Assembly (NCBI GenBank): GCA_018436095.1
Contig: JAHDMJ010000003.1
Location: 1-64,000 of the forward strand
Length of the DNA stretch: 64,000 bases
Reading direction: 5' to 3'
Source of the DNA: Clostridia bacterium
GTDB taxonomy: Bacteria > Bacillota > Peptococcia > DRI-13 > UBA5745
Of this stretch, positions 4,330-36,241 are shown one piece after another. Each line of letters opens with the position of its first letter. Within the stretch, counting starts at the first letter, position 1. Position numbers and translations under genes: made by a program. The notes beneath the pieces were generated by a model. That model worked only from the letters and a program-made list of their open reading frames with translations. It ran no database searches and was not told the origin of the DNA.

Positions 4330-4334
4330 TTTTC

Positions 4335-5906: not shown

Positions 5907-6147
5907 CCGAAAGTTAATCTGGATCCAGACCAAATACAGATCAAAACTAGAGGAAGTCTAGCCAGATCTGAGCTAGCCTGGAGCCTATAAAAAGATGACA
6001 CAACAGAAATCCAGCAGTAGGAAGTTGCATAAGCCATGGGAATAGTGCAGGCGGGCCAAAGCTGCCAGGGGCTGGGAAGCCGGAATGCCGGGATTTCCTA
6101 TCTCCTGGCGGCCCCTCTGGCCCCTAAAGAAAGGATGATAGAAAAGA
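5907..6147 (+). other. 240-base gap in the tail operon with imperfect inverted repeats
   Basis: No ORF. It contains several small palindromes (TCTGGATCCAGA near 5920-5931) and a longer imperfect hairpin at about 6053-6125, pairing a GGGCCA...GCCAGGGG arm with a CCTGGC...TCTGGCCC arm, without a T-run. The hairpin lies just upstream of the tail chaperone gene and might adjust expression of that gene relative to the sheath and tube genes. Confidence 0.4.
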
Positions 6148-6671: not shown

Positions 6672-6687
6672 GGAAGGAGGAATGGGA

Positions 6688-8792: not shown

Positions 8793-8805
8793 GAGGCGGT
8801 TGAAG

Positions 8806-9780: not shown

Positions 9781-9786
9781 GCCTGA

Positions 9787-11637: not shown

Positions 11638-12167
11638 GCCTGATGAAGTTTATGCCGCCCTATTACCGGGAGAGTCCCGTCGTGGTTGACCTGCAAGGAG
11701 CTTTTGGCAGCCAAACCGAGGCCCTGGCGGCGGCAAAGGAGGATTTATTTAAACAGTTTACTTTAGATACTGCCACTTGGGGCTTAGCCAATTGGGAAAA
11801 AGCTTACGGCCTGGAAGTGGAGGTAACGAAGGATCATGAATACCGGCGGTCCAGGGTCCGCAGCAAAATGCGGTCCACCAGCACCACTACCCTGGCCATG
11901 ATTAAAAATGTGGCGGAGAGTTTCAGCAATGGTTCGGTGGAACTCATTGAGGAGCCCGGCAGCCATCACTTTGAGATTAAATTCGTAGGCAATATCGGTA
12001 TTCCGCCGAATATGGAGGATCTGCAAGGGGCGGTAGAGGAGCTAAAGCCCGCCCATTTAGCGGTGGATTATACGGTAATCTACCGGACCCATTTGGTGCT
12101 GCGGCAGTTTACCCATGCCCAGCTCAGCGCTTTCACCCACAGGCAGATCCGGGAAGAAGACATTTAA
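11634..12167 (+). CDS. Tail protein I-like, DUF2313 (YmfQ-like)
   Basis: 177 residues. N-terminal MPPYYRESPVV and the DTATWGLANWEKAYGLEV motif, with RRSRVRSKMRS following, match YmfQ/DUF2313 proteins, which link the baseplate to the tail fibre. In most related clusters the fibre gene follows immediately. Here the next 168 bases (12168-12335) are non-coding and the holin gene follows, so the fibre has been lost or moved. Confidence 0.85.
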   Translation: MSLMKFMPPYYRESPVVVDLQGAFGSQTEALAAAKEDLFKQFTLDTATWGLANWEKAYGLEVEVTKDHEYRRSRVRSKMRSTSTTTLAMIKNVAESFSNGSVELIEEPGSHHFEIKFVGNIGIPPNMEDLQGAVEELKPAHLAVDYTVIYRTHLVLRQFTHAQLSAFTHRQIREEDI

Positions 12168-12335
12168 ATAAGGCATAGCCTAAAGGGATGTTTTGGTAAG
12201 TTTATGAACACTTCGTCAGGTACGGCTATATACTATGTAGTGAGGGGCCTGTTTATTTTTGAAAACTAAAATTGAATAACGAACAACAGTTTTTCTCATA
12301 GCTGTTTTAAATAAAAATTTACGAAAGGACTTACC
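12168..12335 (+). other. Gap where a fibre gene would be expected
   Basis: AT-rich, no ORF and no tandem ATGTCA site. A possible -10 (TATACT) occurs near 12228 without a clear -35. The sequence gives no remnant of a fibre gene that I can recognise. Confidence 0.4.
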
Positions 12336-12875
12336 ATGTTAAGCGAATGGAAAAAGATTCAGGCCGTCATTACCGCAATGGCAGCAGCTATAGCCGTCAG
12401 ACTAGGCATTCTGGCGCTGCCGATCTTTCTGCTGTTGGGGCTGAATATTACCGATTATTTCACCGCCATTATGGCGGCTCCCCGCCGGGGAGAGAAGGTT
12501 AGTTCAGATCGGGGTATGGCCGGAATTAAGAAAAAAATCAGCATGTACATATTGGTCTGCCTCGGTGCAGTAGTCGATATTCTGTTAACCGTATCTACGG
12601 CAGGGCTCACCATTCCTACCCGCTGGGTTTTTGCCCTGTTGGTTACGATTTGGCTCATTTGTAACGAAGTAATCAGCATTCTGGAAAATCTCATTGATAT
12701 GGGGGTGGCCATTCCCCCCTTCCTTTTGCCTTTGGCAGAATGTATTCGGGAAAGCATTGAAGGCGGCGGCGAGGCCGCCGGTAAATGCGGCCTGGGTCAG
12801 GGCCGGGGTCAGGGCGGCGGCAACGAGGTAAAGGATTTGCCGGCCGGCAGTAATCCTGATGAGGAGGATAAATAA
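12336..12875 (+). CDS. Phage holin, superfamily 6-like (copy 1)
   Basis: 179 residues. Three hydrophobic stretches at about 11-45, 68-95 and 100-120, with the family pattern GLNITDYFTAIMA and KKISMYILVCLGAVVDILL. The C-terminal tail is Gly-rich and charged and longer than in the two paralogues at 25623 and 31834. It makes the membrane lesion that releases the endolysin and tail particles. It is directly upstream of the endolysin gene, 3 bases apart. Confidence 0.9.
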   Translation: MLSEWKKIQAVITAMAAAIAVRLGILALPIFLLLGLNITDYFTAIMAAPRRGEKVSSDRGMAGIKKKISMYILVCLGAVVDILLTVSTAGLTIPTRWVFALLVTIWLICNEVISILENLIDMGVAIPPFLLPLAECIRESIEGGGEAAGKCGLGQGRGQGGGNEVKDLPAGSNPDEEDK

Positions 12876-12878
12876 ACT

Positions 12879-13505
12879 ATGGTGATAAAGAAATATTCCA
12901 AAAGCAAAAACGGCGGAGAACGGCTTTCTCCGAATTTTACGGTTAGGGAATTTGCCTGCAAAGACGGTACGGACCTTATATTGATCGACGACGAACTGGT
13001 AAATTTATTGCAGCAGGTCAGAGATCATTTCCAAGTCCCGGTGACGGTCAACAGTGCCTATCGCACCGCCGCTTACAATGCTAAAATTGGCGGTGTTAAA
13101 AACAGCCAGCATGTGCTGGGTATGGCTGCCGATATCGTAGTCAAGGACGTAACGCCTATTGCTGTTGCCCAATATGCCGAATACCTGGGAGCTAAAGGCA
13201 TCGGCTTATATAGTGATTTTGTGCATTTGGATACGAGAAAAGGGGCAAAAAGCCGCTGGATCAATAAAGGGAAGGAAGTTGCGGTAAGCGGCTTTCCCGG
13301 CTACCAGGAGCCCCAGGCGCCTGCAGCGCCGGCAGCCAAGGATTCCCTGTCAATAGAAATCTATGATGGGTCCGGCGAGCTGGTGACGGCCTTGCAAGGA
13401 CGGCTGGATGGCGGTACAACCTGGGCGCCGCTGCGGCAAGTAGCGGAGGCTTTGAAAGCCACTGTGATTTTTGATCAAGAAACAATAAGGATCATTGCAC
13501 CGTAA
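12879..13505 (+). CDS. Endolysin, peptidase M15-type with C-terminal stalk-like domain (intact copy)
   Basis: 208 residues. Residues about 20-135 are an M15A D-Ala-D-Ala carboxypeptidase-like domain: SAYRTAAYN, then the zinc ligands in SQHVLGMAADIVV and VHLDTR. Residues about 165-208 (LQGRLDGGTTWAPLRQVAEAL...VIFDQETIRI) resemble the Cu-amine-oxidase-N/stalk repeat, perhaps a wall-binding piece. It follows the holin and would cleave peptide cross-bridges. Of three copies in the window, only this one has an unbroken reading frame through both domains. Confidence 0.88.
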   Translation: MVIKKYSKSKNGGERLSPNFTVREFACKDGTDLILIDDELVNLLQQVRDHFQVPVTVNSAYRTAAYNAKIGGVKNSQHVLGMAADIVVKDVTPIAVAQYAEYLGAKGIGLYSDFVHLDTRKGAKSRWINKGKEVAVSGFPGYQEPQAPAAPAAKDSLSIEIYDGSGELVTALQGRLDGGTTWAPLRQVAEALKATVIFDQETIRIIAP

Positions 13506-23804: not shown

Positions 23805-23839
23805 ATGTCAACCAATGTCACTTTCCCTTTTGCTATAGT
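23805..23839 (+). promoter_or_regulatory. Candidate late promoter with tandem ATGTCA sites (copy 2)
   Basis: ATGTCA at 23805-23810 and 23815-23820; extended -10 TG-c-TATAGT with hexamer 23834-23839, 19 bases after the second half-site begins. It drives the fibre gene at 23893. The sequence from 23803 to the start codon is nearly identical to that before the fibre at 30224. Confidence 0.75.
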
Positions 23840-23892: not shown

Positions 23893-25152
23893 ATGGCAAA
23901 ACATACAGAACATTATGGCTTTACTAAGCCAGAACTTAATGACTTCTATGATATAGAAGTAGGGAATAACAACTTAGATGTAATCGATGAATTGATTAAA
24001 GGGAACGAGGACGCAATTGAGGATGTAGCTGGCCCCGGACGCACAACAGAAACTGTGGTAGGCGCTTACGCCATGGCCGAAGCGGCAGCCGGGCAAGTCG
24101 GCAGCGTGGATAGCAAGATAGGCTCCACAGGTGATACCGGCGGAACTACCACGGCCGGTAGCGTCTTTGCCAAGTTGAATGCGCTGCTGCAAAAGTTTGT
24201 ATCAGCCTGGACGGATGCCCGGGCGGCGAAGCTGGACAATTTAGATACGACGGTTAGCAGCCGGGCGAGTCAGACCAGCATTACCACGCTACAAACGACA
24301 GCTAACGCCATCAACGATACCAAGATCGGCGCTACAAACAACACCGGCGGCAGCACCACGGCAGGCACCGTGATGGCTAAGTTGAATGCGATTTTGGCAA
24401 GGGTACTAGGGCTTTCTGGTAGCGGCAAGCGAGTCTTTACAGCCAACGGCACATTTGTGGTGCCGGCGGGCGTGACTACGCTATATATAACTGCTTGTGG
24501 CGGCGGCGGCGGTGGCGCCGGCGGTGGTGGTGGAGGATATGGAATTAGTAGTAACACCGGCTCTGGCGGTGGAGGAGGCAGCAGCGGTGGAGGAGCTGCT
24601 GCTATTATAGGAAAAAGCTATTCCGTAACTCCAGGGTCAACTTTAAATATAACGGTTGGTGCAGGCGGTGCTGGTGGTGACGGTGGTACTGGTGGTGTTT
24701 ATACATCAAGTCAGTATGGTACGGCTGGTAGCGGCTCTTCCGGAGGAACTACTGTTATAGGAGGGCTAGTATCTTTACCTGGAGGAACCTCTAATGGTGG
24801 TGCTGGTGGTGCTGGCACAGGAAGTCCAGGCGCCGGCGGGGCTACTTCTGGTACTGCCGGAGGAAGCGGCGGCAGTGCCGGTAGGGGTGGAACTAATGGA
24901 GCTACTAGCGGAAACGCCGGGGGTGGTGGAGGATATGGTGGTGCTAGCTTAGGAAATGGAGCGATAGAAAGACAAGGTGGAGTTGGTTCTAGTTCAGGCG
25001 GTGCTGCTGGCACTGTAGGTGGCGTTGGTGCTGGTTTTGGAGCAGGTGGCGTTGGTGGCGATGGTGGGAGGGGAGGATCTCCATCTTCAAATGGCTATAA
25101 TGGTCAAGCAGGCATGTCTGGTGGATCAGGTATCGTTATTATCGAATGGTAG
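23893..25152 (+). CDS. Tail fibre 1 with glycine-rich C-terminal adhesin
   Basis: 419 residues. Residues 1-40 (HTEHYGFTKPELNDFYDIEV, then LDVIDELIKGNEDAI) form a baseplate-attachment segment shared with fibre 3 at 30224. Residues about 60-165 contain repeats of the type KIGxTxxTGGxTTAGxVxAKLNA. The last ~240 residues are glycine-rich runs with interspersed strands, as in Gly-rich phage adhesins, and end in GIVIIEW. The Gly-rich part is the likely receptor-binding tip. Expressed from the late promoter at 23805. Confidence 0.85.
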   Translation: MAKHTEHYGFTKPELNDFYDIEVGNNNLDVIDELIKGNEDAIEDVAGPGRTTETVVGAYAMAEAAAGQVGSVDSKIGSTGDTGGTTTAGSVFAKLNALLQKFVSAWTDARAAKLDNLDTTVSSRASQTSITTLQTTANAINDTKIGATNNTGGSTTAGTVMAKLNAILARVLGLSGSGKRVFTANGTFVVPAGVTTLYITACGGGGGGAGGGGGGYGISSNTGSGGGGGSSGGGAAAIIGKSYSVTPGSTLNITVGAGGAGGDGGTGGVYTSSQYGTAGSGSSGGTTVIGGLVSLPGGTSNGGAGGAGTGSPGAGGATSGTAGGSGGSAGRGGTNGATSGNAGGGGGYGGASLGNGAIERQGGVGSSSGGAAGTVGGVGAGFGAGGVGGDGGRGGSPSSNGYNGQAGMSGGSGIVIIEW

Positions 25153-25164
25153 GAGGTTAAAAAT

Positions 25165-25500
25165 ATGCGATTTGCACAAATTTTATATGATAAAGCTCAT
25201 TGGATATTTGAGGCGGAGGATAAACCTGAATGGCCACCGGGACCAGATGGTGAAGCAATTATCATTGTTGATATCACCACCATGCCTGAGGTGCAGGAGG
25301 GCTGGGATTATAATGCCGATACTGGCGAATTTGCTCCGCCTCCTACACCCGATCCCCAGCCCCTGCCGCCGGAGCCTGATTTCACGCCGGTCAGCCAGCC
25401 AATGGTGGCCGAAGACACAACGGCTCTGCAAGCTGAGGTAAAGGCATTAAGGGAGCAAATGTCAACGCTGATCAATCTGCTCCAGCAAAAGGGTGCCTAA
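25165..25500 (+). CDS. Fibre-associated small protein
   Basis: 111 residues. An N-terminal globular part (MRFAQILYDKAHWIFEAED) is followed by a proline/acid-rich linker and a short coiled coil (LQAEVKALREQMSTLINLL). It sits 12 bases after the fibre gene. Genes at 29808 and 31462 hold the same place behind the other fibres but have different N-termini. A role in fibre folding or attachment is likely from position only. Confidence 0.7.
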   Translation: MRFAQILYDKAHWIFEAEDKPEWPPGPDGEAIIIVDITTMPEVQEGWDYNADTGEFAPPPTPDPQPLPPEPDFTPVSQPMVAEDTTALQAEVKALREQMSTLINLLQQKGA

Positions 25501-25557
25501 CTATAAAGCCTAACTATAAATCTAAACTAAATCTAAACTAAATATCAATACCTATTA

Positions 25558-25592
25558 CAAGGCAGGATACTTAAACGGTCCTGCCTTGTTGC
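25558..25592 (+). terminator. Hairpin between fibre gene pair and holin
   Basis: CAAGGCAGGA (25558-25567) pairs perfectly with TCCTGCCTTG (25579-25588). The T-tract is weak, so termination may be partial. Upstream, 25501-25545 has short AT-rich repeats (CTAAACTAAAT). Confidence 0.6.
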
Positions 25593-25622
25593 TGTAATTT
25601 AATAATGAGAGGCGGTCGAGAC

Positions 25623-26078
25623 ATGGACACAATCAAAAGTATCAAAATCGTAGTAACAGCGGTGGGAACGGCCATAGCAGCGCAGCTTGGCATATTGGCC
25701 CTGCCGGTTTTTACGCTGCTAGGGTTGAACATCACGGATTATGCCACGGCGATTTTGGCAGCGAAGAGCCGGGGCGAAAAGGTTAGCTCTGGAAAAGGCA
25801 TTAGGGGGATCATCAAAAAGTTGGGTATGTACATCCTGGTGTGCCTGGGTGGCGTAGTCGATATCCTCCTGGCCCATGGTGGGGATAGTATTGGCCTTGT
25901 CTTGCCAGGGTCATGGATATTTGCGTCCTTAGTCGCAGTGTGGCTCATTTGCAATGAGCTGATCAGTATACTGGAGAATCTTATTGACCTTGGCACACCT
26001 ATCCCGCCTTTTTTGATGCCGCTGGCCAGAAAGATTAAAGATACGATTGAAGCCAAAGGGGGTAGTAGCAATGGTTAA
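25623..26078 (+). CDS. Phage holin (copy 2)
   Basis: 151 residues from the ATG at 25623, behind GAGGCGGTCGAGAC, the same leader as copy 3 at 31834. Hydrophobic segments at about 8-38 and 60-110, with GLNITDYATAIL and KKLGMYILVCLGGVVDILL, match the holins at 12336 and 31834. The end overlaps the endolysin start (26071) by 8 bases. Confidence 0.88.
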   Translation: MDTIKSIKIVVTAVGTAIAAQLGILALPVFTLLGLNITDYATAILAAKSRGEKVSSGKGIRGIIKKLGMYILVCLGGVVDILLAHGGDSIGLVLPGSWIFASLVAVWLICNELISILENLIDLGTPIPPFLMPLARKIKDTIEAKGGSSNG

Positions 26079-26727
26079 GCAGTATAGCCTTGTGAAGTTG
26101 GGCAGGGGTTATAAGCTATCCAAGAACATCACCCTGGGCGAATTTGCATCAAAAGGCGCAGATGGCTCCGAGCCAACCCTGGTCGATCCAGAGCTGATAG
26201 AAAAAATCCAGCAGATGCGTGATTTGTTGGGGGCCCCGGTCCATTTTAACTCCGGCTTTCGCACGGTAAAGCATAATGCGGCCGTAGGCGGTGTGGCCGG
26301 CAGCTACCACACTAAAGGCATGGCAGCAGACATCTGGTTTGGTAACACATTTGCCGATAGAATACCGGATGAAGAGGCTGCCCGGTGTGCCGAATATGTC
26401 AGCTTCGGCGGCATTGGGCTGTACCCTGGCCGCATCCATGTCGATACCCGGCCCGGGCGGTATCGTTACCGCAAGCCTGGTAAGGACTATATTACCGTAG
26501 CCGGCTTCCCGGGCTATGTGCCGCCGGCAGCGCCGGAACCGGAACCTATCGTTGATCCTGCTCCAGCCGCCGCTGTGCCTGTGCGTGTACTCTGTCGCTG
26601 TGGTGACCTGATTGAATCTCTGTAGGGCATACGCATTAACGGCAGTATTTATGGGCCTGTACGGCAGCTTTGCGAAAGCCTAGGCCATGTCGTAGAGTGG
26701 GATGGGGACAAAGTGACGGTAAAATAG
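26071..26727 (+). pseudogene. Endolysin M15 (copy 2) with a premature TAG before the C-terminal domain
   Basis: From ATG 26071 the frame encodes an M15-type peptidase domain (FNSGFRTVKHNAAVGGVAGSY, then HTKGMAADIWF and IHVDTR). TAG at 26623-26625 then stops translation at 184 residues. Reading on in the same frame to 26727 gives the stalk-like domain seen in the other copies (GPVRQLCESLGHVVEWDG). The aligned position in copy 3 is Glu (GAG), so a single G-to-T change explains the stop. The catalytic domain is complete, so a truncated enzyme might still be active. Confidence 0.8.
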
Positions 26728-26738
26728 GTGGACATAGC

Positions 26739-26789
26739 AAAGCCGCTTCCAGGTGTGATTTTTTGTCACGTCCGGAGGCGGCTTTTTTT
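26739..26789 (+). terminator. Terminator after endolysin copy 2
   Basis: AAAGCCGCTTCC (26739-26750) pairs with GGAGGCGGCTTT (26774-26785), followed by T residues. A near-identical hairpin follows endolysin copy 3 (32921-32972). Confidence 0.85.
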
Positions 26790-26887
26790 GGTTGGCTTTT
26801 ATTACCTCTTGCCCATCAGGGTCTTTTAATCGTATAATCGTTTCACCAAAACCAGAAATAACTTTCCGGAAAGGAGAGAATAATTTT

Positions 26888-27118
26888 ATGATTATACCGG
26901 AACAACTGAAAAAGCCCTTGCGTCAACATTTGGAGGAGCTTAACATAGCAGCAGCTACCCGCCGATGGGACCAGATAAGAGAGGCCATGGATACGCTACA
27001 GTATGTGATAACCTGCGGGCAATCCTATTATGGCCTGTCGCCCAGTTTGGCGGTAAAGCAAAGCTTTGGCGAGTATCAGCTTGTGGACCGGCGAAGCGGG
27101 GCCGTGGTGGAGCTGTAG
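26888..27118 (+). CDS. Small uncharacterised protein at the cassette end
   Basis: 76 residues from the ATG at 26888, with AAAGGAGA 11-18 bases upstream. Soluble, helical N-terminal half, ending LVDRRSGAVVEL. Not recognised. Its last ~100 bases are duplicated at 35219-35325 at the end of unit 2, so it was a standard component of both cassettes before unit 2 was rearranged. Confidence 0.65.
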   Translation: MIIPEQLKKPLRQHLEELNIAAATRRWDQIREAMDTLQYVITCGQSYYGLSPSLAVKQSFGEYQLVDRRSGAVVEL

Positions 27119-27288
27119 GGGGCTATTTAATTCCTTCGCCAACTTGGCACCATTTTGGCACCAAAATAGATGAGGAGAGAAATAGCAAGGACCAGAACAA
27201 AGATCAGAAGTTGAAAAAACCTAATAAAATCAAGGCTTTCGGGACATAGTATTAAATTATCTGAAAAACAAACTGATGCAATTTGTAA

Positions 27289-27344
27289 GACTTAAAATCC
27301 TGCGAGGGTTAAACCTCGTACCGGTTCGACCCCGGTCTCGGGCA
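27289..27344 (+). repeat. Attachment-site repeat 2 (3' half of tRNA-Leu)
   Basis: 56 bases identical to 23396-23451, from the anticodon loop to the discriminator. The 5' half of the tRNA is absent, so this is not a tRNA gene. The match continues through the terminator hairpin to about 27420. It marks the junction of units 1 and 2. Confidence 0.92.
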
Positions 27345-27359
27345 CTGCATACATAAAGG

Positions 27360-27388
27360 AAACCCTTGAGCAATCAAGGGTTTTTGCT
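27360..27388 (+). terminator. Terminator hairpin (copy 2, within the att repeat)
   Basis: AAACCCTTGA (27360-27369) and TCAAGGGTTT (27374-27383) around a GCAA loop, followed by TTGCTTTT. Duplicate of the hairpin after tRNA-Leu. Confidence 0.8.
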
Positions 27389-27495
27389 TTTGTTGGACAA
27401 TTGTTATTGGATTATTATGGGAACGCTGTAGCCGATGGAAACGCTGTTTTGGGGTTGGTTCAATGCATTATGGCAGTTTTATGGCAGTTTTTAAA

Positions 27496-27795
27496 TCACT
27501 TTGCAGCCTTGATAGTAAAGGGCGAAGAGGCAATGGCTGCCTTTTTTTCGTGCTTTAAAACATGCCCATACGTGTCCCACGTCACAGCAGCAGTTTGATG
27601 CCCCGCCAACTCCTGCACTACGCTGACTCGTGTCTGGCGCATCATCTGGTAGGTGATAAAAGCGTGCCTAACGTCATGTAGCCGCATTTTAATACCGAAT
27701 TCCCGGGAATACTCTGCCATCTTAGCAGAAAAGTAATCTGGGTTTGTGGGCTTGCCATCAGGATGACAGAATAAAAAATCCATGCCAAAATAAGC
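27496..27795 (-). pseudogene. Tyrosine recombinase (phage integrase), 3' remnant
   Basis: About 100 C-terminal residues on the minus strand: CHPDGKPTNPDYFSAKM, then the box II pattern LHDVRHAF, AGHQTA, and the catalytic tyrosine region WDTYGHV. The N-terminal two thirds are missing. At about 27790 the sequence switches to a tail gene on the other strand. Its 3' end lies about 150 bases from the attachment repeat, the expected place for the integrase of a tRNA-Leu element. Confidence 0.85.
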
Positions 27796-28383
27796 AGCAC
27801 CGGCCGATATACGCTGACGCTGGATAATCAAGCCTACACGCTTTATATCGATGCATCGGTGACATCTGCACAGTGGTATAACGAGATACATATTATTGTC
27901 GATCGAATGAAGCCTGCAAACATCGTCTACATCAACCGCCCGCTGATCGAAATGGGCATAGCTGTGTCCGAGGAGATCAGGCACAGCGGAATAAATTATC
28001 AATATCAGCTGGGGACGAGATGGGTTTTAGGCAAGAACCCGTTTGCCCAGTTTGAGAACCTGGGAGTGATTAAAATGGCAGAGACAAAAAGCATAAAGCC
28101 ACTATTTTTAAACGATCTGGCCAATTTCACAGCGGATGATGTTGCCACTGTATTAATTAACGATAGCCTGGTGGTTACCGATTTCGATCTAAAGGCTGCT
28201 GCTGACAGCGTAGCCAACATCGAATATTCGCTGCCGATAGGTGCTGCTGATGTCATTACGGACATTAAGCTGCGAAAGGCTGATGCGTCGGTGCTTACCG
28301 AGTCTGTGGTATACGTTCCGCTGACGACCGGTGCCGTAATCAAACACAAAATACCAATCAAGGAGGTAGTGGTAAATGGTTAA
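27790..28383 (+). CDS. Tail protein preceding fibre 2, 5'-truncated
   Basis: The frame is open from about 27790 (a GTG at 27859 is the first usable start) and encodes about 197 residues. Early residues (TLTLDNQAYTLYIDASVTSA) and WYNEIHIIVDRMKPANIVYI look like the internal part of a longer protein. The second half (KPLFLNDLANFTADDVATVL..., TTGAVIKHKIPIKEV) resembles proteins found between YmfQ-type and fibre genes. It was cut when joined to the integrase stub. It overlaps the start of fibre 2. Confidence 0.6.
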   Translation: MSSTGRYTLTLDNQAYTLYIDASVTSAQWYNEIHIIVDRMKPANIVYINRPLIEMGIAVSEEIRHSGINYQYQLGTRWVLGKNPFAQFENLGVIKMAETKSIKPLFLNDLANFTADDVATVLINDSLVVTDFDLKAAADSVANIEYSLPIGAADVITDIKLRKADASVLTESVVYVPLTTGAVIKHKIPIKEVVVNG

Positions 28384-29794
28384 CCCCTTGCCTGCAGACT
28401 TACCGGAAAACTGGTCGCTTGATCAAATCGTGTCGCCCTCGGGCACCGACGTGGGCCTGACGGCAAAACACGGCTATAACTATTTAATGAAGCAGGTCAA
28501 CGATGCCCAGCGAGCGGTTAGTGATAAGACTGGGTATGGATTGGGCGAAGCGTCCAAAGATATCTCAAATCAAGACTGGCTGGATGTGTTATCTCAAAAT
28601 GCGGGTGGATGGTACAGCGGCCACAATGTTACAAATGCTCCTACAACTGGTTTGGGCGGGACATTTTGGTACACCTTTATAGTTAGTCCGCTAAGCGAAG
28701 GCAATAAATACCAGACTTGCATTGCTACACATGTGTATTCCGGGAAAACATATACAGGGTATCGTTATAACGGCGTATGGGGCGGATGGTCAGAAATTGC
28801 GAAAACCTATACTTCGTTGGGCAGCATGGGGCTGTCCGATGCAAATATGAGCCCAAGCGATTTCGGGGCCAACGTGCTGGCCATGATTAATGCAACAGCC
28901 CATTACTCAGCGGCTAGATTTGTCGTCGGTAGTAGCTCTCCTAATTTGCTGGCAAGCATAAAAGCCTACCTGAATGACACCAACAATGATTATTTTTTTG
29001 AACTTTTCCGTTCCACGTCGGCCAGTCTTCCCAATAAAATTTTTATCGTGCGTAATCAGGCAAATTCTTTGCAACCGCTTTGGTACAGCACCTATGACGA
29101 CGGACTACCGCCACCGATCAACCTGTCAACGGGATTTGTCAGCAAGACAGTAACAACCCCGCAAGACATAGCGGGTATGCTTAGGGCACCAATTGACGGT
29201 TTCTATGCAAAAAATGCCGGCACAGCGAACAGGCTTAACGGCGGTAGAGTTTTATTACAAAATTGTGTTGACAGCAAACTTGGTGGGTCCGGGCATTGCA
29301 CCGTGGACAATTATAACGACATGATATATTTAGCTGTAGCTGGAGTTAGTAACAAGTCTATCTTTTTTAAGATGAGAGATTTGACAGGCTCTAGAGAGGC
29401 TTGGCACAGCGGCAATTTCCCGGTAGAGGAAGGGACATTTACACCACAATTTAATTTAGATACTATTAACGGCAACAGGTATGGGTACTATTACCGAAGG
29501 GGCAATCGTGTCTGTGTTGAATTTGGTTTAGAAGCCCAAACGAATCCCGGAACCGATAATACTATTGTAATAACTGGATTGCCTTTTGCACCTGCCTGGA
29601 ATAGAAGACAATATCTTACGGCGTTTTGCCTCGTTTTGAATAGAAGTGGCTACCATCCGCAGGAAACACTTGTTTTTTCATTGGCTTCTGGTGAAATCGC
29701 ATCGCACTTAACTAACGTGTCGCTAAAATACAGCGATTTTGCAACCGGAAACAGTATCTTTATACGCATCTATGGCGAGTATGCCATCGCATAA
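28376..29794 (+). CDS. Tail fibre 2
   Basis: 472 residues. The N-terminus (NPLPADLPENWSLDQIVSPS) differs from fibres 1 and 3 and is of the kind that follows YmfQ-linked proteins. The middle (about residues 143-258) is almost the same as part of fibre 3 (DFGANVLAMINATA, LLASIKAYLNDTNNDYFFEL). The last ~200 residues, ending IFIRIYGEYAIA, are unique and probably form the receptor-binding tip. Translationally coupled to the preceding tail gene; no tandem ATGTCA site precedes it. Confidence 0.82.
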   Translation: MVNPLPADLPENWSLDQIVSPSGTDVGLTAKHGYNYLMKQVNDAQRAVSDKTGYGLGEASKDISNQDWLDVLSQNAGGWYSGHNVTNAPTTGLGGTFWYTFIVSPLSEGNKYQTCIATHVYSGKTYTGYRYNGVWGGWSEIAKTYTSLGSMGLSDANMSPSDFGANVLAMINATAHYSAARFVVGSSSPNLLASIKAYLNDTNNDYFFELFRSTSASLPNKIFIVRNQANSLQPLWYSTYDDGLPPPINLSTGFVSKTVTTPQDIAGMLRAPIDGFYAKNAGTANRLNGGRVLLQNCVDSKLGGSGHCTVDNYNDMIYLAVAGVSNKSIFFKMRDLTGSREAWHSGNFPVEEGTFTPQFNLDTINGNRYGYYYRRGNRVCVEFGLEAQTNPGTDNTIVITGLPFAPAWNRRQYLTAFCLVLNRSGYHPQETLVFSLASGEIASHLTNVSLKYSDFATGNSIFIRIYGEYAIA

Positions 29795-29807
29795 TAAGGA
29801 GGCTTTT

Positions 29808-30125
29808 ATGATGCAGACAGAAATCAAAACACGAATCAGTATAACCGATATAAACGCAGACGGTGACTGCTCTGTTTTAACGCAGCAGTATATTGCTGTC
29901 GCAGACCAGGAGCACATCATCAGCAATCACCGGGAGGCTCTTATCCCAGGCCAGTTCGACCGGGCGCAGGAAATATTACCGCCTAACCTCTTCGCCGCTA
30001 TCCAGGCTATATGGACACTAGAGGTCATCGCTGCTTACGAAGCTAAGATTGCAGCAATTGAGGCAGCCATGGCTCCGCCTGCGCCTGAGCCGGAAGAACC
30101 AGAGGAACCAGCAATAGAGGAATAG
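29808..30125 (+). CDS. Fibre-associated small protein (behind fibre 2)
   Basis: 105 residues; ATG at 29808 (or 29811) follows AAGGAGG. N-terminal beta-rich part (TRISITDINADGDCSVLT), then a helix shared with the gene at 31462 (IWTLEVIAAYEAKIAAIEAA) and an acidic/proline tail (PPAPEPEEPEEP). It holds the chaperone position after a fibre gene. Function inferred only from place. Confidence 0.7.
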   Translation: MMQTEIKTRISITDINADGDCSVLTQQYIAVADQEHIISNHREALIPGQFDRAQEILPPNLFAAIQAIWTLEVIAAYEAKIAAIEAAMAPPAPEPEEPEEPAIEE

Positions 30126-30135
30126 CCACTTAAAC

Positions 30136-30170
30136 ATGTCAACCAATGTCACTTTCCCTTTTGCTATAGT
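30136..30170 (+). promoter_or_regulatory. Candidate late promoter with tandem ATGTCA sites (copy 3)
   Basis: ATGTCA at 30136-30141 and 30146-30151, extended -10 TG-c-TATAGT with hexamer 30165-30170, 19 bases after the second half-site begins. Nearly identical to copy 2 over the whole leader to the start of fibre 3. Confidence 0.75.
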
Positions 30171-30223
30171 AATGCCAAGCAAACCGGTGAGCTTGAGTAT
30201 AAGAGCAGAAAGGAAAGAAGGGC

Positions 30224-31444
30224 ATGGCAAGACATACAGAACATTACGGCCTTAATAAGCCTGAACCTAATGATTTTTATGATGTAGGAATAGGGAATGA
30301 CAACTTAGATGTAATCGATGAGCTGATTAAAGGGAACGAGGATGCTATAGCAACCAAAGCATCCAAAGCCGTACCCGCCGCAGCTAACAACTTGGCCGGT
30401 CTGGCCCTTAGTGGTGATCCTGTTGACACAGGCATCCACAAAGACTTGGTAGGCCGGGTATATACCAGCCTGGCCAGCATGGGGCTGTCTGATGAGGATA
30501 TGTCGCCAACGGATTTCGGGGCCAACGTGCTGGCCATGATTAATGCAACAGCCCAATATTCAACGGCTAGATTTGCCGTTGGCAGTGCATATCCCAATTT
30601 ACTGGCAAGCATAAAAGCCTATCTGAATGACACCAACAATGATTATTTTTTTGAACTTTTACGTTCCACGTCGGCCAGTCTTCCAAATAAAATTTTTATC
30701 GTGCGTAATCAGGCAAATTCTTTGCAACCGCTTTGGTACAGCACCTATGACGACGGACTGCCGCCACCGGTAAATCTATCTACAGGATTTGTCAGCAAGG
30801 CGGCAATGGTTCCGCAGGAAGTGTCTGCACCATTGATAATAAGCTATCCACCAATTCCATATCTCGAATTAAAAGCCTCAGAGAGTTTTAAATCTACTTT
30901 TATCAAAAACGCAAACGGGGGTGCCGGAGTAGATTTAGGCACTTATATTACAGACAAAAATGGAGCAAACGAGACGTCCTTAATAGTATTTGCCAAAGAA
31001 TCTAGGGTAGGATGCGTTTTTAATGGACTTAGCTACGACATGTGGCACGGAGGCAATTTTCCCAAGGATGCAATGACGAATTGGCCGCTAACTGTTGTCG
31101 GCAGTAATCAAGGCGCTGCTACAATATTGCACCAATATACTTACTACAAGCGGCAAGGGGACTTCGTATACATAAGTCTTAATGTGGGTTTTACTAGGGG
31201 CACCATGGACGGGAATGTACAGATACAAAATTTGCCGTATGTAGCCAAGCAAGGAAGGAATACCGTAAATTTTGGATATTTTGACAGAATTGGCACGATA
31301 ACAAATCTACAGGGAAACATTGGCGGATATGAAAATTATATGGCGCTTAGGTATAATGGCAACACCGCTGTCACAAGCACTATGATTAGTCTTACGGAAC
31401 AAGCAATGATTCAGGGAAGCGCAATCTACGAAATTGCATTATAA
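30224..31444 (+). CDS. Tail fibre 3
   Basis: 406 residues. Residues 1-42 match fibre 1 (HTEHYGLNKPEPNDFYDVGI), residues about 79-192 match fibre 2, and the C-terminal ~190 residues (KQGRNTVNFGYFDRIGT, ending AMIQGSAIYEIAL) are unique. This is a mosaic of an attachment module, a shared shaft and a distinct tip. It is driven by the late promoter at 30136 and followed by its own associated gene after 17 bases. Confidence 0.82.
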   Translation: MARHTEHYGLNKPEPNDFYDVGIGNDNLDVIDELIKGNEDAIATKASKAVPAAANNLAGLALSGDPVDTGIHKDLVGRVYTSLASMGLSDEDMSPTDFGANVLAMINATAQYSTARFAVGSAYPNLLASIKAYLNDTNNDYFFELLRSTSASLPNKIFIVRNQANSLQPLWYSTYDDGLPPPVNLSTGFVSKAAMVPQEVSAPLIISYPPIPYLELKASESFKSTFIKNANGGAGVDLGTYITDKNGANETSLIVFAKESRVGCVFNGLSYDMWHGGNFPKDAMTNWPLTVVGSNQGAATILHQYTYYKRQGDFVYISLNVGFTRGTMDGNVQIQNLPYVAKQGRNTVNFGYFDRIGTITNLQGNIGGYENYMALRYNGNTAVTSTMISLTEQAMIQGSAIYEIAL

Positions 31445-31461
31445 GCATAAGGAGGATAAGC

Positions 31462-31785
31462 ATGGAAATCTTTAAGAAAGAACACATATCCGATATTACC
31501 CCGGAGGGAATTTGTCATGTATCCACTAGGTATTACACGATGGTTGGCGAATATGAGGTATCCTTATCAGGCCATCCGGATTATCGAGATAGTGGTACAA
31601 GCTATACGCCATTACAACAGGAAAAGGCGGGGGCTGATGTTGATCCTGAAACATTCCGCCGCTTACAGGCGATCTGGACGCCGGAAGTCATCGCCGCATA
31701 CGAAGCCAAGATTGCGGCAATGCAGGCAGCCATGGCTCCACCTGCGCCGGAGCCGGAAGAACCAGAGCAAACCGAAAATGACTAA
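31462..31785 (+). CDS. Fibre-associated small protein (behind fibre 3)
   Basis: 107 residues, AGGAGG upstream. The N-terminal half (EIFKKEHISDITPEGICHVS) is unlike that behind fibre 2, but the C-terminal half is nearly the same (LQAIWTPEVIAAYEAKIAAM and a Pro/Glu tail). Variable N-termini and constant C-termini suggest each small protein is matched to its fibre tip. Confidence 0.7.
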   Translation: MEIFKKEHISDITPEGICHVSTRYYTMVGEYEVSLSGHPDYRDSGTSYTPLQQEKAGADVDPETFRRLQAIWTPEVIAAYEAKIAAMQAAMAPPAPEPEEPEQTEND

Positions 31786-31789
31786 GTAA

Positions 31790-31812
31790 GCCGCCTTCGG
31801 GCGGTATTTTTA
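31790..31812 (+). terminator. Terminator before holin copy 3
   Basis: GCCGCC (31790-31795), TTCG tetraloop and GGCGGT (31800-31805), followed by ATTTTTATT. Compact and strong; readthrough or a separate promoter must supply the holin. Confidence 0.8.
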
Positions 31813-31833
31813 TTATAGAGAGGCGGTCGAGAC

Positions 31834-32295
31834 ATGGACACAATTAAAAGCATCAAAATCGTAGTAACGGCGGTGGGGACGGCCATAGCAGCGCAGTTGG
31901 GGGTATTGGCAATCCCCTTATATATACTGCTGGGGCTGAATATTACGGATTATGCCACGGCTATCATGGCAGCTCCTCACCGTGGTGAAAAGGTTAGCTC
32001 GGATAAAGGTCTGGCGGGTATCAAGAAAAAAATCAGCATGTACATCCTGGTTTGCCTGGGCGCAGTGGTTGATATCTTGCTGACCTATGCGGCAGGGGTG
32101 GCCGGGATCACGCTGCCGGCAGCCTGGGTGTTTGCCTTGCTTGTGACGATCTGGCTTGTTTGCAATGAAGTGATTAGTATATTGGAAAATCTTATTGATA
32201 TTGGCGGGCCGATACCGCCTTTTTTAATGCCTATCGTGCAGCAGATTAAGAAAACGGTAGAGGCAAAGGCAGAGGAGGGGCGAAGGGATGGTTAA
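31834..32295 (+). CDS. Phage holin (copy 3)
   Basis: 153 residues. The N-terminal 14 codons equal copy 2 (MDTIKSIKIVVTAVG), while the middle (TAIMAAPHRGEKVSSDKGLAGI) is closer to copy 1, so this copy looks recombinant. Same hydrophobic layout as the others. It overlaps the endolysin start at 32288. Confidence 0.88.
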   Translation: MDTIKSIKIVVTAVGTAIAAQLGVLAIPLYILLGLNITDYATAIMAAPHRGEKVSSDKGLAGIKKKISMYILVCLGAVVDILLTYAAGVAGITLPAAWVFALLVTIWLVCNEVISILENLIDIGGPIPPFLMPIVQQIKKTVEAKAEEGRRDG

Positions 32296-32907
32296 GCAGT
32301 ATAGCCTTGCCAAAGACGGTAATAAAAAGCTTTCGGCCAACTTCACAGTGCGGGAATTCGCCTGCAAGGACGGCAGCGATTTAATCCTTATCGACGATGC
32401 CTTGGTGGACGTATTGCAAAAAATCCGTGACCATTTCGGCGTGCCAGTGACGATCACCAGTGCATACCGCACTGCTGCCCACAACGTCAAAGTAGGCGGT
32501 AGCCCAAGCAGCCAGCATTTGCAGGGGACGGCGGTTGATATCACGTTACCCGGCATCAGCCCGCTGGCCGTGGCGCAGTACGCCGAATACCTGATGCCCG
32601 GCAGCGGCGGCATAGGTGTCTACGGTACCTTTACGCACGTCGATGTCCGGCAGAACCGTAGCAGGTGGGATCAGCGGTCTGGCAGGCAGTAGTTGCAGGG
32701 TGGCCAGGCTACCAGGCCCCGGAGCCTGTTGTTGATCCGGCGCCGGCAGAGGCCGTCCCGGTGGAGTTGCTTTGCCGGTGTGGGGGCTTGATTGCTACCG
32801 TCGAGGGGGTAAGGCTTGACGGCGCCGTTTATGTGCCTGTGAGGCAGCTTAGTGAGGCCCTGGGCTATGTCGTAGAGTGGGATGGCAGCAAGGTAACAGT
32901 AAAATAG
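32288..32907 (+). pseudogene. Endolysin M15 (copy 3), frameshifted at the domain linker
   Basis: From 32288 the frame encodes the M15 domain (SAYRTAAHNVKVGG, SQHLQGTAVDITL, HVDVRQN) and stops at 32692. The C-terminal stalk-like domain continues in another frame to TAG at 32905-32907 (VVAGWPGYQ, YVPVRQLSEALGYVVEWDG). A single-base indel around 32660-32690 separates them. Copy 2 is broken at the same inter-domain point by a different mutation. Confidence 0.85.
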
Positions 32908-32920
32908 AGATGGTTATACC

Positions 32921-32972
32921 AAAGCTGCTTCCAGGCGCTTAGTACGAGCGTATCCGGAGGCGGCTTTTTTTG
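32921..32972 (+). terminator. Terminator after endolysin copy 3
   Basis: AAAGCTGCTTCC (32921-32932) pairs with GGAGGCGGCTTT about 24 bases on, followed by a T-run. It ends the lysis unit just before the next late-promoter-like site. Confidence 0.8.
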
Positions 32973-32981
32973 TTTTGAAAC

Positions 32982-33016
32982 ATGTCAACCAATGTCACTT
33001 AGGAATATGATAGCGT
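32982..33016 (+). promoter_or_regulatory. Candidate late promoter with tandem ATGTCA sites (copy 4), before the ATPase operon
   Basis: ATGTCA at 32982-32987 and 32992-32997; a weaker extended -10 (TG-a-TAGCGT) has its hexamer at 33011-33016, again 19 bases after the second half-site begins. A possible TATGAT lies at 33006-33011. The 235 bases to the next gene hold no ORF of note. This places the ATPase/STAS operon where a further fibre cassette would be expected. Confidence 0.6.
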
Positions 33017-33251
33017 AATAAATAAGAAATGCTAAAAGAAAGTAAGGTTTTCAGGTTAGATGAATGTGTGGCCGGAGGGAAAATAAGTATAGGCAAGACA
33101 CAACAACAGGATCAATGTGTTCTAATACTACCAGTATAGCTTTAGATCAAATTTTCAAGAAGGTGATTATTTAAGATGATTATTCAGACTTGTGATTAAA
33201 AGGTAAATGGGGTAATATTACTAATAACTAGGTGCGTGCGTTTTTCTGGAG

Positions 33252-34307
33252 GTGATTTGCATTAAGATTAAAAGCGTTGAATATAATATATGGCTTGAGC
33301 GTAGAAATGTAAAAAACCTTCGGAGGAGAAGCAAGCATAAAGAAAAGATTAAAGGGAAAAAGAAAAGGCGATTGCAATTAAAAATACAAACGAGGAGATC
33401 GGCAGAATACGACAAGAAGTATAAACGGTATGAGTTTTGTGCACCACAGAATTTCTCATTTATGAAAAATCCAAAGGAAACTATTGATTTTTTTTACAAA
33501 GTGATATCCTTCATATCTAGCGACTCTAACTATGGAAAGCACTTATTCTTCGATATCAGCCGTATACAGAATTTAAGCATAGACGCCTTGATGTATTTAC
33601 TGGCCATTATAAAGAATTTAAGAAGTCATTATAGAAAGTATACTTTTTCCGGAAATGAACCTCAAAATGAAAAAATAAGAAAAATGTTTAAGGAGTCTGG
33701 TTTTTATAATTATGTGGGTTATAACGGAAATGAGCCATTAACTAGAAGTAAAGACAACATTCAAATTTTATGTGGAAATAATGCTGACCCTAAATCGGCA
33801 AAAACTATCCTAGACTACGTGTCGGGCATAACGTCAAAGAAACAAAGAGAACTTTCGTATTTATACGATATTATAGTTGAATTAATGTCTAACACCTATT
33901 CACATGCGTATCAAGGAAAAAACTTAGCATTATTAAGGAATTGGTATTGCTTTATTGAGTATAATAAAGACGAAAATAGATTAGTGTTTTCTTTTCTAGA
34001 CACTGGAGAAGGTATACCTAAGACAGTAAGAAAGAAATGGAAAGAGAAACTCGACTTTTTGGGTATAATTAAGGAAAGTGAATATGTAATATCGGCCTTA
34101 TCTGGGGATTTTAGAACTAGTACTAATGACAAAAAACACGGAAAAGGACTTCCTGCAATAAAGAAATATTGCAACGATGGTCTAATTTCAGAGCTGCGAA
34201 TACTCTCCAGTCGAGCGTTTATTCGTGTCACCGAAAGAGAATTGGAGAGTGAAGAGTTAAATGCCGCTTTAGTGGGAACAATATTTAACTGGAGCATATA
34301 TGTATAA
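33252..34307 (+). CDS. GHKL-type ATPase, unknown system
   Basis: 351 residues from GTG 33252; the ribosome site GGAGGTGAT overlaps that GTG, so an ATT at 33261 may be the true start. Residues 1-60 are very basic (RRRSKHKEKIKGKKKRR). The C-terminal ~150 residues carry the Bergerat fold: N-box ELMSNTYSHAY (about 209-219), G1 FLDTGEGIP (about 249-257) and G2 KHGKGLPAIKKY (about 296-307). No histidine phosphorylation domain is seen, so it resembles an anti-sigma-type or Hsp90-like ATPase rather than a sensor kinase. AT-rich codons differ from the surroundings. It heads a three-gene operon with a STAS-like partner. Confidence 0.8.
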   Translation: MICIKIKSVEYNIWLERRNVKNLRRRSKHKEKIKGKKKRRLQLKIQTRRSAEYDKKYKRYEFCAPQNFSFMKNPKETIDFFYKVISFISSDSNYGKHLFFDISRIQNLSIDALMYLLAIIKNLRSHYRKYTFSGNEPQNEKIRKMFKESGFYNYVGYNGNEPLTRSKDNIQILCGNNADPKSAKTILDYVSGITSKKQRELSYLYDIIVELMSNTYSHAYQGKNLALLRNWYCFIEYNKDENRLVFSFLDTGEGIPKTVRKKWKEKLDFLGIIKESEYVISALSGDFRTSTNDKKHGKGLPAIKKYCNDGLISELRILSSRAFIRVTERELESEELNAALVGTIFNWSIYV

Positions 34308-34337
34308 AAATGCTATTTAAGAAAGGTGTTGAGCAAA

Positions 34338-34655
34338 ATGGAAATATCTATTGTGAAGGATTTTACCGACACTCCTGGCGCACGATATAGAGAGCAGGGT
34401 GATTTCTCCGGGCAGCAGTTCAGGGAAGAAGTGCTCTTGCCTATGTTTGAAGAAGCTGAGAAAAATAAAGAAAAGCTAAACATAAACCTCGATGGTGGGT
34501 ATGGTTATCCTACGTCTTTCTTAGAAGAGGCGTTTGGGGGCTTATCTCGGCTGAAAGGGAAAGACAAAGTGTTATCTATATTAAGTTTTACCTCGGAAGA
34601 CGAACCTGCATTAGTTGATGCAATAAAAAAATATATTCTAAATGCAGATAAGTAG
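34338..34655 (+). CDS. STAS-like DUF4325 protein
   Basis: 105 residues from the ATG at 34338 (AAAGGTG 9 bases upstream). The signature GGYGYPTSFLEEAFGG (about 53-68) is the core of DUF4325, a STAS-like domain that often accompanies a GHKL ATPase. By analogy with SpoIIAB/SpoIIAA, the ATPase may bind or phosphorylate this protein; no serine in the usual STAS position is certain. 30 bases behind the ATPase gene and 11 before the membrane protein gene. Confidence 0.82.
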   Translation: MEISIVKDFTDTPGARYREQGDFSGQQFREEVLLPMFEEAEKNKEKLNINLDGGYGYPTSFLEEAFGGLSRLKGKDKVLSILSFTSEDEPALVDAIKKYILNADK

Positions 34656-34666
34656 GTAATTTATAT

Positions 34667-35218
34667 ATGGATGATAAAATTAAGAGAATAGGCAAGAATA
34701 TTGCCATAGGTTTTTTCATTTTAGTTGTTGTTATTGTGATAATTTTCAATATTAAAAACAATACCGAATTCTGGTCTTATTCTTTCACTAATGTCGTGTC
34801 CACTGTGATAGCAGTTGTTGTGGCGTATTGTTTTGTCCAAGAGAAAAACAATGAAAGAAAAATGAAGGAGAAGGCTGATCAACTAATAGAAAAAGTGGAG
34901 GAGATGGTTCTAGCGGAGGATTTTTATAATATCTCTGCTGATGCCGACATCCAAATTTTAATGCTAAATATCAGAAGGTTAAAGAATAAGATGAAGCTTC
35001 TAGAACAATGCGCCGAAAAACTAAATTTTGTTAGCGATATAGAGTATATAAGCAAACAGGTAGAGAATTATGATGAGATGGTTGGAGAACATATATCTGA
35101 CTTAGGGCAGTTGAGCGATGCTAGTAAAAAAATGCAAAAAATTGCACATAATATTGAGCAAAGATGCGAAACGATTAAGATAAACCTGTGTGGGTTTTGC
35201 AAGATAGTTGATAAATAA
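34667..35218 (+). CDS. Two-TM coiled-coil membrane protein of the ATPase/STAS operon
   Basis: 183 residues. Hydrophobic segments at about 12-29 (IAIGFFILVVVIVIIF) and 40-57 (NVVSTVIAVVVAYCFV), then a long charged helical region (about 60-175) with coiled-coil character. It ends with cysteines (CGFCKIV). No family recognised. Its place as third gene suggests a membrane effector or sensor operated by the ATPase/STAS pair. This is inference; the topology is clear. Confidence 0.75.
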   Translation: MDDKIKRIGKNIAIGFFILVVVIVIIFNIKNNTEFWSYSFTNVVSTVIAVVVAYCFVQEKNNERKMKEKADQLIEKVEEMVLAEDFYNISADADIQILMLNIRRLKNKMKLLEQCAEKLNFVSDIEYISKQVENYDEMVGEHISDLGQLSDASKKMQKIAHNIEQRCETIKINLCGFCKIVDK

Positions 35219-35325
35219 GCGCTGCGTCAATCCTATTACGGCCTGCCGCCGGGCCTGGCGGTGAAGCAAAGCTTTGGCGAGTATCAGCTTGTAGACCGGA
35301 GGAGTGGGGCTGTGGTGGAGTTGTA
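35219..35325 (+). pseudogene. 3' fragment of the cassette-end gene (copy of 27014-27118)
   Basis: About 100 bases match the last third of the gene at 26888-27118 and keep its frame (SFGEYQLVDRRSGAVVEL, then TAA). The 5' two thirds are absent; the ATPase operon abuts it directly. This shows the operon replaced or inserted into a standard cassette end. Confidence 0.85.
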
Positions 35326-35462
35326 AACCTTCGGCGTTATGGCAGTTTTGTGGCAGATTTCATGATTTATTACCCTATGATTATTTTCACCGCACGGCAA
35401 GATTGGCTTAAAATATGAGTTTCTCAATATTATTATACTAATAAAAGATGTACTAATCAGGG

Positions 35463-35516
35463 CTTAAAATCCTGCGAGGGTTAAACCTCGTACCGGTTCG
35501 ACCCCGGTCTCGGGCA
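35463..35516 (+). repeat. Attachment-site repeat 3 (3' half of tRNA-Leu)
   Basis: 54 bases identical to 23398-23451. The downstream terminator hairpin is also copied (35532-35555), but similarity ends soon after. It is the right-hand boundary of unit 2. Confidence 0.92.
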
Positions 35517-35531
35517 CTAAGGAAATAAAGG

Positions 35532-35558
35532 AAACCCTTGAGAAATCAAGGGTTTTTT
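35532..35558 (+). terminator. Terminator hairpin (copy 3, within the att repeat)
   Basis: AAACCCTTGA (35532-35541) and TCAAGGGTTT (35546-35555) around a GAAA loop, then T residues. Confidence 0.8.
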
Positions 35559-35627
35559 GCTTTTGTTCGACAATTTTTCAGACCATTACCAGTATTGATA
35601 TAGGTAGCACTGACGGTCCCTTTTTAT

Positions 35628-35655
35628 TGTTTTTCGGCTTATCTTGTGCTATTAT
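35628..35655 (+). promoter_or_regulatory. Promoter of holin-like toxin gene
   Basis: TTGTTT at 35628-35633 and extended -10 TG-c-TATTAT (hexamer 35650-35655), 16-base spacer. It gives a leader of about 55 bases before the toxin start. Confidence 0.5.
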
Positions 35656-35716
35656 ATGGATGGCGTTACCAGTGTGTACGGTAGGCGGTTAGCCCCCTTG
35701 AAAGGGGGTGGTGCCC

Positions 35717-35806
35717 ATGAATGTGTCATATGCAGAATTGTTTCAATTTTGCCTTGTCCTCATTGGCCTTGTGGCTCTGGTTATCCAGATACACAAAAAG
35801 AAATAG
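35717..35806 (+). CDS. Putative holin-like toxin, type I toxin-antitoxin system
   Basis: 29 residues: one hydrophobic helix (YAELFQFCLVLIGLVALVIQ) and a basic end (HKKK), with AAAGGGGGTGG upstream of the ATG. Size, single membrane span and lysine tail match the small holin-like toxins of type I systems. A hairpin (AATAGCCG 35802-35809, CGGCTATT 35827-35834) overlaps the stop. A consensus promoter on the other strand at 35888-35916 would make an antisense RNA over the 3' part of the mRNA. A truncated second copy is at 37784. Confidence 0.7.
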   Translation: MNVSYAELFQFCLVLIGLVALVIQIHKKK

Positions 35807-35887
35807 CCGCCAACTTTCCCGAGCCACGGCTATTCCTTAGCTAAAACTGGGGCAACCGTCTACCGGTAACGCCCTTTTTATGTTTCC

Positions 35888-35916
35888 ATTATAGTCGTAT
35901 TTTATGCAATTGTCAA
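35888..35916 (-). promoter_or_regulatory. Antisense promoter (candidate RNA antitoxin)
   Basis: On the minus strand TTGACA (35916 to 35911) and TATAAT (35893 to 35888) are separated by 17 bases, a perfect sigma-A consensus. Transcription would run leftwards across the toxin 3' end, as expected of an RNA antitoxin. The degenerate copy at 37904-37932 keeps the same spacing. Confidence 0.75.
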
Positions 35917-35995
35917 AGGCAAAGTGCAATGTTGTGCAATAGGTCAATCTCTCAAATCGAGGTTTCTTTATTTCTATTTTTGTTTGGAGAAATAT

Positions 35996-36241
35996 ATGAA
36001 TTGGTTAATGGTGATTCTGGGCATTGGTATCGCAATATACTCCATATACAATTTAAAAATACTGAAGCGTGGTGAGATTTATGGAAGGAATAAATTATTC
36101 TACATTTCATATGCCGTACTGGGAGTTTGCAGTGCTGCAGCAGGTGCCGCTGTATTTAGCGGCCAAACAAATAAATATTTAATTTGGGCAATGCTTGTTT
36201 TACATATTATTGCATTATTTCTTGTGCCTAAGAAAAGGTGA
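35996..36241 (+). CDS. Small three-helix membrane protein
   Basis: 81 residues from the ATG at 35996 (GGAGA upstream). Three hydrophobic segments at about 2-19, 33-52 and 58-76, with a basic loop (KILKRGEIYGRNK). Not recognised. Accessory gene between the toxin and an acetyltransferase. Confidence 0.6.
   Translation: MNWLMVILGIGIAIYSIYNLKILKRGEIYGRNKLFYISYAVLGVCSAAAGAAVFSGQTNKYLIWAMLVLHIIALFLVPKKR

Follow-up and report, generated by a model that had tools for sequence, protein, structure and literature searches.

PBSX-like defective prophages show the gene order of a tail module, encode a sigma-like late regulator and carry a holin and an endolysin at their end, and the loci of RcGTA are under common control. 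A tailocin is usually pictured as a single operon that includes its fibre, and its target range is read from that operon. According to the available excerpts of two reports, fibre mosaicism and localized fibre exchange are already known in tailocins (PMC6331570, PMC13195805). In Pseudomonas syringae, localized recombination replaces the receptor-binding protein and chaperone of the R-type syringacin, and the tailocin has been retargeted by a receptor-binding protein and chaperone supplied on a plasmid (excerpts of PMC6331570). The tail-fibre loci of carotovoricin from Pectobacterium recombine homologously, and the N-terminal half of the fibre is conserved (excerpts of PMC13195805). RcGTA of Rhodobacter capsulatus is a phage-like particle made from five loci, and its tail fibre co-evolves with the main cluster (excerpts of PMC10883770). 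Distantly related Alteromonas phages have a fibre and chaperone in common across families (excerpts of PMC10579305).

The DNA analyzed here, a stretch of 64,000 nucleotides from a Clostridia bacterium (the window), resembles each of these systems in part. With R-type syringacin it shares the localized replacement of fibres, and a supply in trans, there achieved by experiment, would be a second likeness; unlike the syringacin pair, which according to the excerpts of PMC6331570 lies inside the tailocin locus, no fibre is found in the locus here and the fibres are scattered. The homologous recombination of fibre loci and the conserved N-terminal half recall carotovoricin, whereas the fibre locus described in the excerpts of PMC13195805 lies in the cluster, with an invertase in some strains, and the fibres here are unlinked, with no inverted repeats in the fibre region. 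RcGTA is the nearest working analogue of the split particle proposed here; RcGTA is a gene transfer agent with a head, DNA and one fibre (excerpts of PMC10883770), whereas we propose a set of alternative fibres and found no head genes. The likeness to the Alteromonas phages lies in fibres common to different phages, and no link to a tailocin is seen in the excerpts of PMC10579305.

Fibre exchange by recombination is already known in kind. Novel here is that the shared front of the fibre genes most likely consists of a control element and a docking domain, which would link them to a tailocin some 20 kb upstream that has no fibre gene. No report of a natural tailocin with an empty slot and scattered, co-marked fibres was among the titles listed for the open-licence PMC literature searched, which is weak evidence of absence.

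The tailocin locus and the gene after gpI

The tail locus near the start of the window (Table 1) contains sheath, tube, tape measure and baseplate genes as well as lysis genes, and the XkdN-like chaperone matches PF08890. It is like PBSX-like prophages in its tail-module order, its sigma-like regulator and its terminal holin and endolysin, and differs from them in that no head genes and no XkdV-type fibre gene behind gpI were found. No head or packaging genes were recognized among the 16 proteins scanned, a set that leaves out small open reading frames. The operon has no fibre gene, the gap between gpI and the holin being 168 nt in the window and 132 nt in a sister species of the genus (G004, 98% complete).

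The sister species carries the same locus with the same neighbours, blocks of 4.4 and 5.4 kb aligning at 88%. For 11 tail, lysis and regulator genes the dN/dS between the two lies at 0.03-0.17 (0.083 for the regulator), compared with 0.037 for a neighbouring host gene, and these ratios indicate that the tailocin locus is under purifying selection. The tape measure has a dN/dS of 0.62 and a replaced middle: the two proteins (6682-8160 and, in the sister species, L047 10784-12451) measure 492 and 555 aa, and 6956-7929 has no DNA match, while the genes around it are conserved.

A gpI gene occurs nine times in seven of 25 genomes of the order. Leaving aside the two tailocins, all seven loci have a docking-type fibre front at the start of the gene after gpI, as seen in an alignment for five of them and by eye for G014 and the second locus of G022. 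Since the gpI locus of G009 is, by eye, a prophage with head genes, this comparison takes in phages as well as possible tailocins.

Table 1. Positions of the tailocin locus, the tRNA-Leu repeats, the fibre genes and the associated features in the window.
Feature	Position	Strand	Remarks
Tailocin / PBSX-like tail locus	2165-13505		PHROG and Pfam matches; no head genes recognized, no fibre gene
Tailocin genes, first part	repressor 2165 (-), regulator 3185, sheath 4326, tube 5472, XkdN-like 6148		
Tailocin genes, second part	tape measure 6682, LysM 8142, D 8800, J 10588		
Tailocin genes, third part	gpI 11634, holin 12336, endolysin 12879		
Sigma-70 region 4-like regulator	3185-3613	+	PF04545 E 3e-5; candidate activator of the element
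Element at the tailocin regulator	3593-3625	+	overlaps 3' end of regulator gene; candidate late promoter
tRNA-Leu gene	23366-23452		
Copies of the tRNA-Leu 3' end	23396; 27291-27385 (+); 35463		27291-27385 lies between remnants A and B
Element before fibre 1	23805-23837	+	0 mismatches to pattern
Fibre 1	23893-25152	+	docking domain (codons 1-42), repeated shaft, glycine-rich tip
Holin and endolysin, remnant A	25605-26625	+	early in-frame stop in endolysin
Integrase 3' fragment, remnant B	27496-28002	-	PF00589 E 9e-9
gpI-like tail protein fragment before fibre 2	27859-28383	+	phrog_521 E 8e-5, phrog_6293 E 5e-12
Fibre 2	28376-29794	+	other type of docking domain, shared shaft, own tip
Shaft module of fibre 2	28818-29146	+	counterpart in fibre 3: 30471-30799
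Small gene behind fibre 2	29808-30125	+	3' half common with 31462-31785
Element before fibre 3	30136-30168	+	0 mismatches to pattern
Fibre 3	30224-31444	+	tailocin-type docking domain, C33/C36-like linker, shared shaft, own tip
Small gene behind fibre 3	31462-31785	+	
Holin and frameshifted endolysin, remnant B	31834-32907	+	
Element before cargo genes of remnant B (33252-35218)	32982-33014	+	2 mismatches to pattern

The element and the docking domain of the scattered fibres

Three copies of the tRNA-Leu 3' end mark two tandem prophage remnants. Remnant A holds fibre 1, a small gene, a holin and an endolysin; remnant B holds the 3' end of an integrase, a gpI-like fragment, fibre 2, a small gene, fibre 3, a second small gene, a holin, a frameshifted endolysin and cargo genes. 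Treating 24-33 kb as a single fibre array was rejected, because the tRNA-Leu repeats split fibre 1 from fibres 2 and 3.

Fibres 1 and 3 had been described in the earlier note as having a leader and about 42 codons in common, and the alignment bears this out over 235 nt at 92%. Compared base by base, the two genes are near random until about 23799/30130, where 59 exact bases are followed by 80-98% identity per 40-nt block, and fall back to near random past codon 42. The common unit has a sharp start at an ATGTCA element, the leader beginning at AAAC-ATGTCA, and ends at codon 42. The conserved element is bipartite (ATGTCANCCAATGTC, 11 nt, TGNTATA) and spans 33 bp. A sigma-54 promoter in the fibre leader was also considered, and was dropped because of its spacing (by eye).

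Searching with ATGTCAACCAATGTCACTT-N7-TGNTATA at up to three mismatches gave nine matches in the genome of the window (G000) and four in G004, while the reversed control pattern gave none across the five genomes searched. An earlier, shorter pattern (a 19-mer, up to three mismatches) did no better than its control, with nine matches against nine, so the case for the element rests on the longer pattern. Over 13 sites, TGTCA, CCAATGTC, TT, TG and TA are invariant. The core of the tailocin site is 88-96% identical to those of seven other sites, whereas the flanks (58 nt upstream, 50 nt downstream) reach 24-40%, near chance. A scan at up to six mismatches over the window and 25 loci, themselves picked for fibres, gpI or the element, returned 14 sites and no further ones: before ten fibre genes, two tailocin regulators, a kelch-repeat protein on contig C12 and the cargo of remnant B. 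As the fibre leaders are homologous to one another, their sites are not independent, and there are about four independent contexts, namely the tailocin regulator, the fibre leaders, C12 together with G004 C11, and the remnant B cargo. Two sites, on C12 and at the cargo, precede genes without a docking domain. The C12 protein (L034 7713-9565) has 585 aa with kelch repeats and MucBP, and no phage gene was seen in its region.

A model of the docking domain found nine genes in G000 and G004, all of them already among its 13 rows, so that this search shows only that there are no additional ones. Eight are unlinked to gpI, and the element is present at eight of eight; the ninth, on contig C36, directly follows its own gpI and has no element. 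When the own genome was searched at the DNA level, C4 (twice), C13 and C37 proved to carry the front module or leader. Among the four other genomes of the genus, related fibres occur in one (G004), and the other three (80-85% complete) have neither fibres nor the element.

A proposed tail with fibres in trans, or the remains of prophages

The same element stands at the tailocin and at unlinked fibre genes, with a predicted role for the regulator, and it is on balance probable, from the DNA, that the shared front makes the scattered fibres a repertoire in trans for the tailocin. This reading starts from what is observed: the fibres are mosaics, an element is common to fibre genes and tailocin, the fibre slot is empty, and the tail locus is conserved. 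A contractile particle without a fibre of its own would be encoded by a head-less PBSX-like locus that is vertically inherited, and the scattered fibre genes would carry the element of the tailocin regulator and, behind it, a 42-codon docking domain like those encoded immediately after gpI at other loci of the order. Upon induction, the sigma-like regulator would bind the element, whose presumed promoter activity would bring the tail operon to expression together with the scattered fibres. Docking to gpI would then allow one type of tail to be assembled with several alternative fibres, and behind the docking domain shafts and tips would be traded with prophage fibre genes by homologous recombination. 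We propose more tentatively, as a possibility that falls somewhat short of probable, that the operon has lost its fibre gene and draws on a replaceable repertoire from the whole genome, one induction giving mixed particles whose killing would cover several target ranges. Counted against a split tailocin are the non-independent leaders, the element sites free of a docking domain, the controls of the short pattern and the three genomes without the element.

The main rival is ordinary prophage decay, according to which the islands are leftover 3' ends of related temperate phages with a common type of promoter, and the tailocin shares ancestry with them and has no functional link to them now. Remnants A and B, lying between copies of the tRNA-Leu 3' end, the latter with integrase and gpI fragments, speak for decay; since both are clearly remains of prophages at a tRNA-Leu gene, the element may be a legacy of phages, which weighs against a split tailocin. 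In addition, four islands have phage lysis genes after the fibre, and three of the eight lysis genes are broken. The tailocin-type fibre genes, on the other hand, are open in ten of ten cases, a count in which shortened tips would escape notice. Compared with the lysis genes this gives a Fisher p of about 0.07, in which assembly errors could also have broken frames, and we take it as a hint of selection on the fibres. Decay is further at odds with the phage contigs C33 and C36, which lack the element, and with C13, C37 and G004 C11, where fibre and element occur with no adjacent phage gene seen (by eye), and it leaves the empty fibre slot of both species unexplained. Decay as the full account appears unlikely, though it deserves serious weight.

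If fibres come in trans, strains of this kind would be scored as defective, one strain could have several specificities at once, and 'dead' prophages would supply fibres that are in working use. The element together with the docking domain would be a simple mark by which to assign fibres to a given tail, and the retention of prophage remnants for use becomes directly testable by means of this mark.

Modules, borders and tips of the fibre genes

Fibres 2 and 3 had been said to share about 110 codons nearly base for base. The sharing stands, over 330 nt (about 28818-29146 and 30471-30799), whereas the near-identity holds in the middle only, the stretch as a whole being 90.6% identical. Its longest exact run is 74 nt, and the pair is the longest direct repeat within 24000-36000, far beyond chance. 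Nucleotide identity per 20-codon block runs 0.62, 0.92, 0.83, 0.97, 1.00 and 0.80, and then 0.50, 0.42 and 0.45, falling to 0.32, so that the border is sharp. The dS rises from 0.28 in the shared shaft to about 1.94 in the tips; for the holins of remnants A and B it is 1.29. The C-terminal ends do all differ, as had been claimed; fibres 2 and 3 nevertheless have distantly homologous tips, at 15-40% amino-acid identity per 20-codon block, and the tip of fibre 1 is glycine-rich. The small genes after these two fibres likewise have common 3' ends (112 nt, 84%) and different 5' ends, as noted before. In fibre 3, tailocin-type fronts match until nt 119-127 and contig C33 matches from nt 118 onward; as front and remainder match different sources, fibre 3 is itself a recombinant.

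The own-genome search also found two contigs, C33 and C36, which both terminate inside fibre genes that have sequence in common with fibre 3. C36 carries portal and capsid genes, and C33 tail genes of another type (the latter by eye). Their terminal 141 nt (L013 1-141, L014 1-141) are identical, and beyond these they are unrelated, with 31 matches in the next 100 bases; two phage fibre genes therefore lead into an identical module, 141 nt or longer, and the assembly hides both its full extent and the 3' ends of the two genes. Such ends are as expected from a k-mer assembler halting at a repeat, and one of the two contigs may have been binned wrongly. The alignment of sister strains that the earlier note had suggested as a check was made at one syntenic locus in one usable sister species (C37 in G000, C64 in G004): the front is conserved, with flanking blocks at 81-92% and the leader at 87%, and behind the docking domain the fibres are unalignable.

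Near-identical DNA modules with unrelated flanks and sharp borders make up a recombinational mosaic, and shafts and tips have very probably been exchanged by recombination, as the DNA reads. What the earlier note had inferred, a recombination that swaps tips, is upheld as far as modules joined to different tips are concerned, by the borders, the dS values, the 141 nt of C33 and C36 and the comparison of C37 with C64. It does not extend to ongoing swapping: within 24000-36000 there are no pairs of inverted repeats, as an invertase-switched fibre locus would have, and no recombinase was recognized beyond the one 3' integrase fragment.

The remnants could also be a silent archive, donating shafts and tips to the intact prophages C33 and C36 via homologous recombination. 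Both the resemblance of their fibres to fibre 3 and the identical 141 nt fit such a role, and temperate phages are described as acquiring DNA from defective prophages in the part of PMC3945230 available; the element, its location at the tailocin regulator and the empty slot are left unexplained, and as a replacement for the split tailocin we consider the archive improbable, while it could operate alongside it. That fibres 2 and 3 arose by duplication and divergence without recombination is very improbable: their distantly homologous tips do imply an old common ancestor of the distal halves, yet at the border dS leaps from 0.28 to about 1.9, a jump that rates could explain only under strong synonymous constraint in the shaft, and the two fibres have docking domains of unlike type. 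A programmed switch, whether run by a site-specific invertase or by a diversity-generating retroelement, is hardly credible: nothing was found in its favour, and 24000-36000 has zero inverted repeats and an integrase fragment as the sole recognized recombinase.

The shaft module was found in one of 25 genomes of the order, the own genome. A tblastn search of phage records gave no relative of fibre 2 or fibre 3. Among viral contigs, one relative was found for the docking domain of fibre 2, and fibre 3, the shaft and the exact element had none. The one relative, on viral contig L026, is 78% identical and likewise stands after a gpI-like gene (by eye). Pfam and NCBIfam gave no match on fibres 1-3, and an AlphaFold model of fibre 3 from the single sequence was unusable (mean pLDDT 33.7). 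On G004 C1 (L027 3624-6963) the docking-domain protein is only 228 aa long, with a beta-propeller-like protein encoded separately behind it and then a small gene, and G021 has a similar split (both by eye), so some fibres may consist of two proteins.

The islands have a variable cargo slot after the lysis genes, closed in each case by the 3' end of one and the same small gene. The cargo of remnant B (33252-35218, with an element copy upstream) comprises three genes, one of them ATPase-like and another a DUF4325 gene, and PADLOC gave no clear defence family for this cargo; the slot on G004 C64 (L028 9337-10236) holds an AbiD-type gene (PADLOC E 6e-79). The tRNA-Leu site of G004, on C53, has no fibre, and 34 nt there (L069 about 7765-7798) are similar to the integrase end of remnant B and are a trace of an earlier insertion at this site.
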